A DNA stretch of 64,000 nt from Umbilicaria muhlenbergii (lineage: Eukaryota > Ascomycota > Lecanoromycetes > Umbilicariales > Umbilicariaceae), in NCBI GenBank assembly GCA_000611775.1, contig KK106985.1, positions 2,094,291-2,158,290 of the forward strand. Direction: 5' to 3'. The translations under genes were made by a program, and so were the position numbers. Below are positions 10,370 through 11,761 of the stretch, in pieces. The first letter of the stretch is position 1, and each line of letters begins with the position of its first letter. A model generated the notes under the pieces. It had not been told where the DNA came from, did not search any database, and saw nothing but the letters and a program-made list of their open reading frames with translations.

Positions 10370-11761
10370 TTAGCGAATGTAGAAGTCGCAAGGAGCCGCA
10401 CACTCCTCTCCATCAGCGACGTCGTCAAACTTCTTTGCCAACCAGAGGTTACCAAGGTCATCGTCAGCAACATCTTCCTCCTCGACGGAACGGATGTAGA
10501 AATCGCAAGGAGCCGCGCACTCCTCTCCGTCCGCAACATCGTCAGACTTCTTTGCCAACCAGAGACCATTAAGGCCGTCGTGAGCATCGTCAGCAACGTC
10601 TTCATCGACGGAACGGATGTAGAAATCGCATGGCGCTGCACAGTCCTCGACATCTTCAGACTCCTTGACTAGCTCAGCATCTAGCTCAGCATCGCGCTTC
10701 TCTGGCAAATTCGAGCCTTCAGCAGGTCCTACGGGGAGCGGATGGACCAAAATGTCGGCAGATTCCTACAATATTCTCAGTATACTTCTAACAGAGCACT
10801 ACGAAGCGAGAAGTAGCTAGGAAAGACTTACCTCGGAGCGGATGTAGAAATCGCACGGAGCTGCGCAATCCTCAATGTCCTCGGAATCTTTGACTAGCTC
10901 GACCTCACGCTTCGCTGGCTCGGGCTCATCGACAGAGCGGATGTAAAAGTCGCACGGAGCTGCACAATCCTCAATGTCCTCGGCCTTGGCGACAATACCA
11001 ATGTCCTTGGGGTGACGCTTCACGAAGCCCGGGACAGCAATACGAGCTGTGAAGAGACGGTGTAGGAGATCAGCAGGTCGTTCCCAAGATAGGCAAGAGA
11101 TAATATGCAAAGCAAACTTCAGGAAGAGAGAAAATGTTGAGGGGAACGAACAAACGCGTCAAGAAAGATAATGTGGGCGATGAGTGGTCGTACATGTACG
11201 CAAAGACAGAAACGAACTGGAAGCGCCCTCTCCCAATAGGGTCTCTCGGTCGTGTTCACTACAGGACGGCGAGTCTATCTAGGATCAAAGATACAAGGAG
11301 CCGAGATGATTGGATGTTAAAACAGAACGACAACGCTTTACCAAAGAGAAAGGATACAAAACCATTGGTACAATAGAACACGATCAAACTAACAGGAAAA
11401 CTTAGACAGGAACTACGATGAAAGGAGGCTTACTCTCGCCACGCTTGCCGCCTACAAAGTGGATTGAGTCGCCGCCTGAGAACGTAACGGCTGCAAAGAC
11501 GGTTAGGCATCAAGGCTCTACTCGTATTGTGGACAATGTCATACTCTGCGGCTCAGGAAGAGCTGCAGCGACGCGCTTCTCGGAGTATCCGATCTGACCG
11601 TCTGGCAATTCTTGGACAACTGCAAGCATGATTAACGAAGAAACACCAAGTAGTGTGGACAGTGTTCTACCCTGCGGGCCTGGGAGAGCCGCAGCAGCCA
11701 CGCCTTTGAGGGTGAGAGTAGTGGCGACAATCGCGAGAAGTGTAGCAGGGAACGACTTCAT
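10370..11761 (-). CDS. Secreted repeat-peptide precursor with five CAAPCDFYIR cores (Kex2-processed repeat protein / putative RiPP or pheromone-like)
   Basis: Five exons: 11761-11671, 11619-11545, 11490-11434, 11046-10832 and 10765-10370. Every junction keeps frame (278 codons, 277 residues). The protein starts with a clear signal peptide (MKSFPATLLAIVATTL...). A pro-region follows with two related units, each ALPxPQ and then a segment ending in KR. Then come five repeats, each with the invariant 10-mer CAAPCDFYIR preceded by acidic residues (IEDC, VEDC, GEEC). Dibasic sites lie between the cores (AKR, EKR, AKK, AKK). The last core is the exact C-terminus of the protein. This is the architecture of alpha-factor-like precursors, Kex2-processed repeat proteins and fungal RiPPs: ER entry, kexin cleavage in the Golgi, secretion of short peptides. 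The two cysteines three residues apart could form a tight disulfide. The core lacks the W-C-...-G-x-x-C pattern of known Pezizomycotina alpha-pheromones, so function is unassigned. The largest intron (11433-11047, 387 nt) is the least certain part. Confidence 0.8.
10373..10966 (-). repeat. Five-copy peptide-core repeat within the precursor gene
   Basis: The codons for CAAPCDFYIR lie at 10937-10966, 10838-10867, 10613-10642, 10490-10519 and 10373-10402 (copies 1 to 5 in protein order). All five translate identically. Eight of the ten codons nevertheless differ between copies at the third base (for example Pro is CCG, CCG, CCA, CCT, CCT). Copies 3-5 share a longer acidic spacer unit (DVADD...LWLAKK), suggesting they arose by later tandem duplication than copies 1 and 2. 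Confidence 0.9.

Follow-up and report, generated by a model that had tools for sequence, protein, structure and literature searches.

Alpha-type mating pheromones of ascomycetes can have a W-C-x3-G-x2-C core with six residues between its cysteines, and the precursor of the h-type pheromone, HPP1, is marked by a C-terminal CaaX motif. A second form of the alpha-pheromone core, PYG[LM]P[IV]G, is given in section 8 of PMC6339444; Kex2-processed repeat proteins (KEPs) are defined there as having a signal peptide and no fewer than three internal repeats that are separated by Kex2 sites, and conserved KEP cores are named in its section 10, i.e., EDYXI, DADAATXYV[A/V]D, YVW[G/A][G/S], SPPHKT, QKLKVD, and XSDW. 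One survey counts 7,878 KEPs and names Y-x-I as the core motif of the dikaritins, the group of ustiloxin (PMC7329392, in part), and the functions of KEPs are called largely unknown in the abstract of PMC9769878.

Here, we describe a locus of Umbilicaria muhlenbergii found in a window of 64,000 nucleotides (the whole stretch of DNA that was analysed) and a partner gene elsewhere in the genome. The first of the two genes (gene 1) is probably a KEP, predicted to release an acidic-armed, disulfide-looped peptide that we take, with fair confidence, for an extracellular signal.

A predicted five-core precursor and its gene model

Gene 1 is predicted to encode 277 residues and a stop codon in five exons read on the minus strand from position 11761 to 10370 of the window. 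The coordinates, the sequence and the five-exon model proposed in the initial annotation hold, the exons joining into one open frame, and the five CAAPCDFYIR cores reported there are exact copies of each other (Table 1).

Table 1. Features of the two predicted precursor genes (positions refer to the window unless a contig is named).
Feature	Position	Strand	Basis
Gene 1, KEP-type precursor model, five CAAPCDFYIR cores, 277 aa	10370..11761	-	open spliced model, GT-AG introns
Gene 1 exon 1, signal-peptide-like N-terminus, AALPGPQ at its end	11671..11761	-	spliced model and hydropathy
Gene 1 exon 2, 75 nt, phase 1-1, unit with EKR end, then VAAALPEPQ (four XA/XP dipeptides after KR)	11545..11619	-	spliced model
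Gene 1 exon 3, 57 nt, phase 1-1, unit TVTFSGGDSIHFVGGKR	11434..11490	-	spliced model
Gene 1 intron 3, 387 nt, unusually long	11047..11433	-	spliced model
Gene 1 exon 4, holding core 1 and core 2, each preceded by KR	10832..11046	-	spliced model
Gene 1 exon 5, from residue 147, phase 0, cores 3-5; KR before core 3; KK between 3-4 and 4-5; protein end ...CDFYIR	10370..10765	-	spliced model
Gene 1 core 1, CAAPCDFYIR	10937..10966	-	pattern match
Gene 1 core 2, CAAPCDFYIR	10838..10867	-	pattern match
Gene 1 core 3, CAAPCDFYIR	10613..10642	-	pattern match
Gene 1 core 4, CAAPCDFYIR	10490..10519	-	pattern match
Gene 1 core 5, CAAPCDFYIR, then stop codon	10373..10402	-	pattern match
Gene 2, predicted precursor, 236 residues, nine exons, one CAAPCDFYIRR core	G000:C6:1592459-1593696 (L006 1123-2360)	+	open spliced model

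All four introns of gene 1 start with GT and end with AG (51, 54, 387, and 66 nt); the third exceeds several-fold the length of the eleven remaining introns in the two gene models (51-92 nt) and may hide an alternative exon, although a scripted search of it for an extra exon in a compatible phase that has a GT[AG]NG donor and carries a dibasic site returned none. The branch-point motif CTRAY is present in two of the four introns of gene 1 and in four of the eight of gene 2, and a total of just 6/12 counts against the KEP reading. Neither predicted product matched a Pfam family up to an E-value of 1, and the PDB search with the product of gene 1 gave three rows only, all at E 0.9.

The composition of the predicted protein would suit a secreted and proteolytically processed precursor. 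Its most hydrophobic 10-mer spans residues 4-13, as judged by hydropathy rather than by a dedicated signal-peptide predictor. It contains five KR and two KK dipeptides; the count of KR, against a shuffle mean of 0.60, was reached by one of 5000 shuffles, and all ten cysteines belong to the cores. The gene agrees with the KEP definition in its five internal repeats and in the Kex2 sites between them (with KK as a weak form), and its N-terminus resembles a signal peptide in hydropathy. The “Kex2-processed repeat peptide” put forward in the initial annotation as one option fits this gene.

Two further features were seen outside the cores. A second short repeated segment, with a tryptophan and a KK end, is formed by GLNGLWLAKK between cores 3 and 4 and LGNLWLAKK between cores 4 and 5 (window 10370-10765). 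At the other end of the protein (window 11761-11434), AALPGPQ and VAAALPEPQ precede the first two units as XA/XP runs typical of STE13 processing, and QVVQELPDGQIGYS and QTVTFSGGDSIHFVGG from the same region could be further, single-copy peptides of gene 1.

Conservation of the core across two mostly dissimilar genes

Among the five copies in gene 1, the core codons vary at C1, A2, A3, P4, D6, F7, I9, and R10 and are invariant only at C5 and Y8, so that eight of the ten codons differ between copies, as was initially annotated. These differences amount to at least nine changes, or ten once the sixth copy (see below) is added, and all of them are synonymous. If every single-base change is taken as equally likely, 21% of the changes in these codons are silent and the chance of nine all-silent changes is about 8e-7; with transitions weighted threefold, 26% are silent and the chance is about 5e-6. 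The comparison of core and spacer codons suggested by the initial annotation was made over the 15 pairs of the six copies. In the core, 86 of 150 codon pairs are identical, 64 synonymous and none non-synonymous. The corresponding counts are 35, 37 and 138 of 210 in the 14 codons preceding the core and 9, 8 and 63 of 80 in the 8 codons after it (fewer pairs, since copy 5 is the protein end), with the reservation that the flanks were compared ungapped, so that differences in arm length inflate their non-synonymous counts, and that the pairs are not independent. The contrast between the core and its flanks is plain nevertheless.

The same record bears on the origin of the repeats. Over a stretch of 101 nt, copy 4 has 82% identity to copy 5, hence units of gene 1 were duplicated, and the duplication is old enough for the silent sites to have diverged. 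The initial statement that the pattern reflects selection “rather than recent duplication” is, accordingly, right as to the time available for silent divergence and has to be amended as to duplication itself, which did take place.

A degenerate pattern for CAAPCDFY matched six places in the whole genome (34.79 Mb), i.e., the five cores of gene 1 and one site on contig C6 at 1592837; the reversed pattern, searched genome-wide as a control, had no match. The site on C6 lies in the predicted gene 2, the most hydrophobic 10-mer of which spans residues 7-16 (hydropathy only). This product contains six KR dipeptides against a shuffle mean of 0.65, a count reached by none of 5000 shuffles, and two of its three cysteines are those of the core, the third (residue 15) being within the hydrophobic N-terminus. 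Its other repeats come in pairs, GTLA[DE]AT...GPRSKR twice and PASGGY[VA]SGAPK twice, with one paired unit per phase-0 exon, and all its introns are in phase 0. Aligned with each other, the two 75-nt exons of gene 2 agree in 57 of 80 columns; the introns preceding them agree in 43 of 58, the closest match among the intron pairs that were compared, suggesting that whole exon-intron units were duplicated in tandem; such a history fits growth by units. With the core present once and the other repeats paired, gene 2 alone stays below the minimum of three repeats set for KEPs in the definition quoted from PMC6339444.

The two genes are largely dissimilar outside the core. A genome search with gene 2 at E-values up to 10 gave 12 matches, seven to its own locus and five to gene 1, and nothing else; the core-bearing part of gene 1 gave three, only to gene 1 itself and gene 2, and the N-terminal part of gene 1 another three, all to gene 1 itself. 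What the two proteins have in common is one unit that surrounds the core, at residues 43-103 of gene 2. Compared with copies 2 and 3 of gene 1, it is identical in 10 of 10 core residues and in five or seven residues of the 13-residue arm. A weak likeness of the two genes before KR (10/22 residues, reached by 7 of 2000 shuffles) is helped by the common KR end. A phase-0 border opens exon 5 of gene 1 as well as exon 3 of gene 2, lying 41 residues ahead of the core in the former and 37 in the latter, and for this reason one exon-sized unit may be common to both genes.

Since a mostly dissimilar second gene on another contig carries the identical core, what is conserved as a product would seem to be the peptide itself. 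The selection on the peptide proposed in the initial annotation is, therefore, supported by the silent-only divergence of the core and strengthened by gene 2. The possibility that the repeat is not translated, or is misread, has to be considered for gene models known from genomic sequence alone, and it is extremely improbable in view of six copies, spread over two loci, that diverge only at silent sites, the frames staying open across five and nine exons, and the uneven GC content of exon 5 by codon position (0.70/0.37/0.55).

Matches to the core outside this genome were few. In a collection of viral contigs, 11 stretches matched the core pattern, of which none was confirmed, and a longer pattern had no match. 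A collection of genome contigs (“genome_contigs”) yielded 63 pattern stretches with a sole surviving candidate, from a Verrucomicrobiia MAG (L014; 41% identity, E 6e-6 among the candidates only); it was taken as a chance match, for its CAAPCDFY shares the reading frame of a 552-codon bacterial gene-like frame (GC content 66%) and stands ahead of the point where that frame probably starts. Neither CAAPCDFYIR nor parts of it were found in the literature searched, which comprised running text.

In KEPs, it is hard to pick out the active peptide among the repeated stretches. In the present case, silent-only divergence and the presence of the core in two mostly dissimilar genes pinpoint ten residues, which brings a receptor assay, the deletion of both genes and work with a short synthetic peptide directly within reach.

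Processing sites and the likely product

The dibasic sites between the cores of gene 1 are, in order, KR, KR, KK, and KK, situated 8 to 24 residues from the nearest core. In both genes, the nearest dibasic site precedes each core by 9 to 17 residues; the nearest site after a core is 8 to 24 residues away in gene 1. In gene 1, none of the cores is directly flanked by a Kex2 site, a point against the KEP reading; RR adjoins the core on the C-side only in gene 2. Cores “separated by dibasic sites”, as initially annotated, are thus a correct description of the order of elements, with the qualification that the sites stand well off the cores and that the last two are KK, the weaker Kex2 site.

With cutting at KR or RR, core 1 is predicted to lie in a piece of 36 residues and core 2 in one of 49, and gene 2 would give the core piece DAVLVEKSDELEDCAAPCDFYIRR. 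The last three cores of gene 1 are separated only by KK, which Kex2 also cuts, “to a lesser extent” in the wording of PMC6339444. These KK sites may escape cutting, leaving a single 108-residue piece with cores 3-5, and this outcome speaks against the KEP reading. In its favour are the two open gene models, their hydrophobic N-termini and KR counts far above those of the shuffles.

The sequence before the core, its arm, is acidic in every copy, with ED or EE directly before the first cysteine. The C-terminal arginine of the core is invariant; it is the last residue of the gene 1 protein and is followed by another R in gene 2. Therefore, ...CAAPCDFYI or ...CAAPCDFYIR with the acidic arm is the likeliest mature peptide, the exact ends being predicted from these residues. 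As the cysteines outside the N-terminal hydrophobic stretch are all core cysteines, a disulfide loop within each core is the natural reading.

The following sequence of events can be proposed. The protein of gene 1, having a hydrophobic N-terminus, would enter the secretory pathway, where a Kex2-type protease would cut it at KR and KK into pieces composed of the acidic arm followed by CAAPCDFYIR. The two core cysteines may then close a small disulfide loop, and the C-terminal basic residue would be trimmed or kept to give ...CAAPCDFYI(R). Gene 2 would supply the same peptide once, among other units. The released peptide most likely acts outside the cell, where a specific partner would read it as a signal. 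Work with such a partner is the proposed reason why the core tolerates no amino-acid change while the arm and the spacers do.

An effector, antimicrobial or wall-surface peptide, acting on another organism or on the hyphal surface in the manner of Rep1 or the effector-type KEPs, is a further reading. Such roles have been described or proposed for KEPs (PMC6339444, in the part considered), and no measurement made here separates an effector-type role from a signal. Still, perfect identity over two loci with no variant would be more typical of a ligand with a fixed partner than of a host-facing, diversifying peptide, and we regard this role as rather unlikely.

Pheromone and RiPP readings and the described systems

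The extracellular signal that we favour could, in principle, be an unusual alpha-type mating pheromone, i.e., a ligand of Ste2 encoded by two genes like MF(ALPHA)1 and MF(ALPHA)2 of yeast. The genome has a STE2 match at C1:9778946-9779833 (L008) of 350.7 bits over the whole model, the single in-frame TGA of which is within a possible 51-nt GTATGT...CAG intron, removal of which keeps the frame, and a STE3 match is present as well. A two-gene, multi-copy layout is known from the yeast alpha pheromone, as far as the text of PMC6339444 considered here goes. The canonical W-C form was tested by one protein consensus query built on two-cysteine alpha units, and this query had one match in the genome, at E 0.023. 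The match (L060) was read as chance: it falls in a 199-residue frame, and the matched stretch contains neither C-x3-G-x2-C nor KR. Simulated precursors with at least two WC-x3-GQ units outscored it in 198-200 of 200 cases, a sensitivity that refers to scoring and not to the first look of the search tool and that was obtained with simulated spacers resembling those of the query. The Pleosporales form was not found as a repeat genome-wide; a single PYGxPxG match, one copy in a 65-residue frame, was likewise taken as chance.

Hence, given the presence of STE2 and the lack of a recognised alpha ligand within the reach of these searches, the peptide is a candidate Ste2 ligand and a non-canonical pheromone is possible. 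Several observations weigh on the other side. The core, CAAPCDFYIR in all six copies, fits neither PYG[LM]P[IV]G nor W-C-x3-G-x2-C, the latter misfit having been pointed out in the initial annotation. No STE13-type XA/XP run leads to it: a single such dipeptide follows the preceding site in three of the six copies (HP, DA, DA), ending at least 11 residues short of the core, and the other three have none, while the long run VA-AA-LP-EP after KR precedes another unit of gene 1. Moreover, the consensus query catches just 112 to 188 of 200 looser C-x3-G-x2-C cores, so the searches may have overlooked a gene of canonical or near-canonical form. Taken together, we consider an alpha-type pheromone doubtful, although worth keeping in view. 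A bolder form of the idea, which is slightly more doubtful still, is that of a new class of fungal pheromone, in which a C-x3-C disulfide-loop ligand, with five copies in one gene and one in a mosaic second gene, would replace alpha-factor for Ste2 (or serve another receptor) in a lineage that has lost the usual core. Should CAAPCDFYI(R) be the ligand of Ste2, the accepted alpha-pheromone motifs would fail for this lineage and motif-based pheromone searches would need rethinking. A C-terminal CaaX box of the a-type or of the h-type HPP1 precursors is absent from both products, gene 1 ending in ...CDFYIR and gene 2 in ...SEVDH.

The “RiPP core” mentioned in the initial annotation was considered as a precursor of the ustiloxin (dikaritin) type. 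The tyrosine present in every core and the Kex2 sites of the repeat precursor would suit it; the core, however, reads F-Y-I-R and not Y-x-I. A genome-wide search for UstYa (PF11807), which cyclisation of the ustiloxin type requires, gave five matches, at C1:5.89 Mb, C1:9.24 Mb, and C6:2.20 Mb. Contig C5 had none, and the nearest was some 610 kb away from gene 2, while UstYa genes are on average 3.09 genes away from the KEPs that they accompany (PMC7329392, in part). The neighbours to which a Pfam family could be assigned among the frames scanned are housekeeping genes at both loci. For gene 1 (16 of 73 window frames scanned), they are a JmjC/PHD protein, a 2Fe-2S thioredoxin-like protein, which we take to be the 24-kDa subunit of complex I, and Vac7; for gene 2 (10 of 48 flank frames scanned), DNA polymerase epsilon, a mitochondrial carrier, COG3, and a ribosomal S2 protein. 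Several scanned frames, e.g., 6 of 10 in one set, had no Pfam family. With the nearest UstYa match this far off and none near either locus, an ustiloxin-type RiPP is very unlikely, and this version of the initial suggestion was dropped. Three of the UstYa-family matches form a group at G000:C6:2203281-2207559, about 30 kb from the contig end, which is possibly an unrelated RiPP or other biosynthetic cluster.

Compared with the described systems, gene 1 shares with the ustiloxin and phomopsin precursors the plan of a Kex2 repeat precursor with tyrosine, and both genes differ from them in the absence of a nearby UstYa match and of a Y-x-I core. Like the MF(ALPHA)1/2, Ppg1, and Ccg-4 precursors, gene 1 is multi-copy, predicted to be secreted and equipped with Kex2 sites, and yeast also has two genes; unlike them, its core follows neither of the two alpha-pheromone forms, lacks a preceding STE13 run and has its cysteines three residues apart instead of six. 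Rep1 of Ustilago maydis is similarly a Kex2 repeat precursor, as gene 1 is predicted to be, yet it yields 37-residue wall peptides (PMC6339444, in part; compared by description and not by sequence).

The closest likeness is to the KEPs as treated in the parts of PMC6339444 and PMC7329392 considered here, with a signal-peptide-like N-terminus, a repeated identical peptide and KR or KK between the repeats. Genes 1 and 2 also resemble about 78% of KEPs in having no DUF3328 (UstYa) gene nearby, 22% being so accompanied (PMC7329392, in part). Section 10 of PMC6339444 names no core that CAAPCDFYIR would match. The gene may be listed, without a name, in a supplementary table. A new core alone would be ordinary, since most KEP types are confined to a single genus in the portion of PMC7329392 considered. 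Gene 1 departs from the KEPs in processing sites that do not border the core. Less ordinary is the identical, exact core in two mostly dissimilar precursors.
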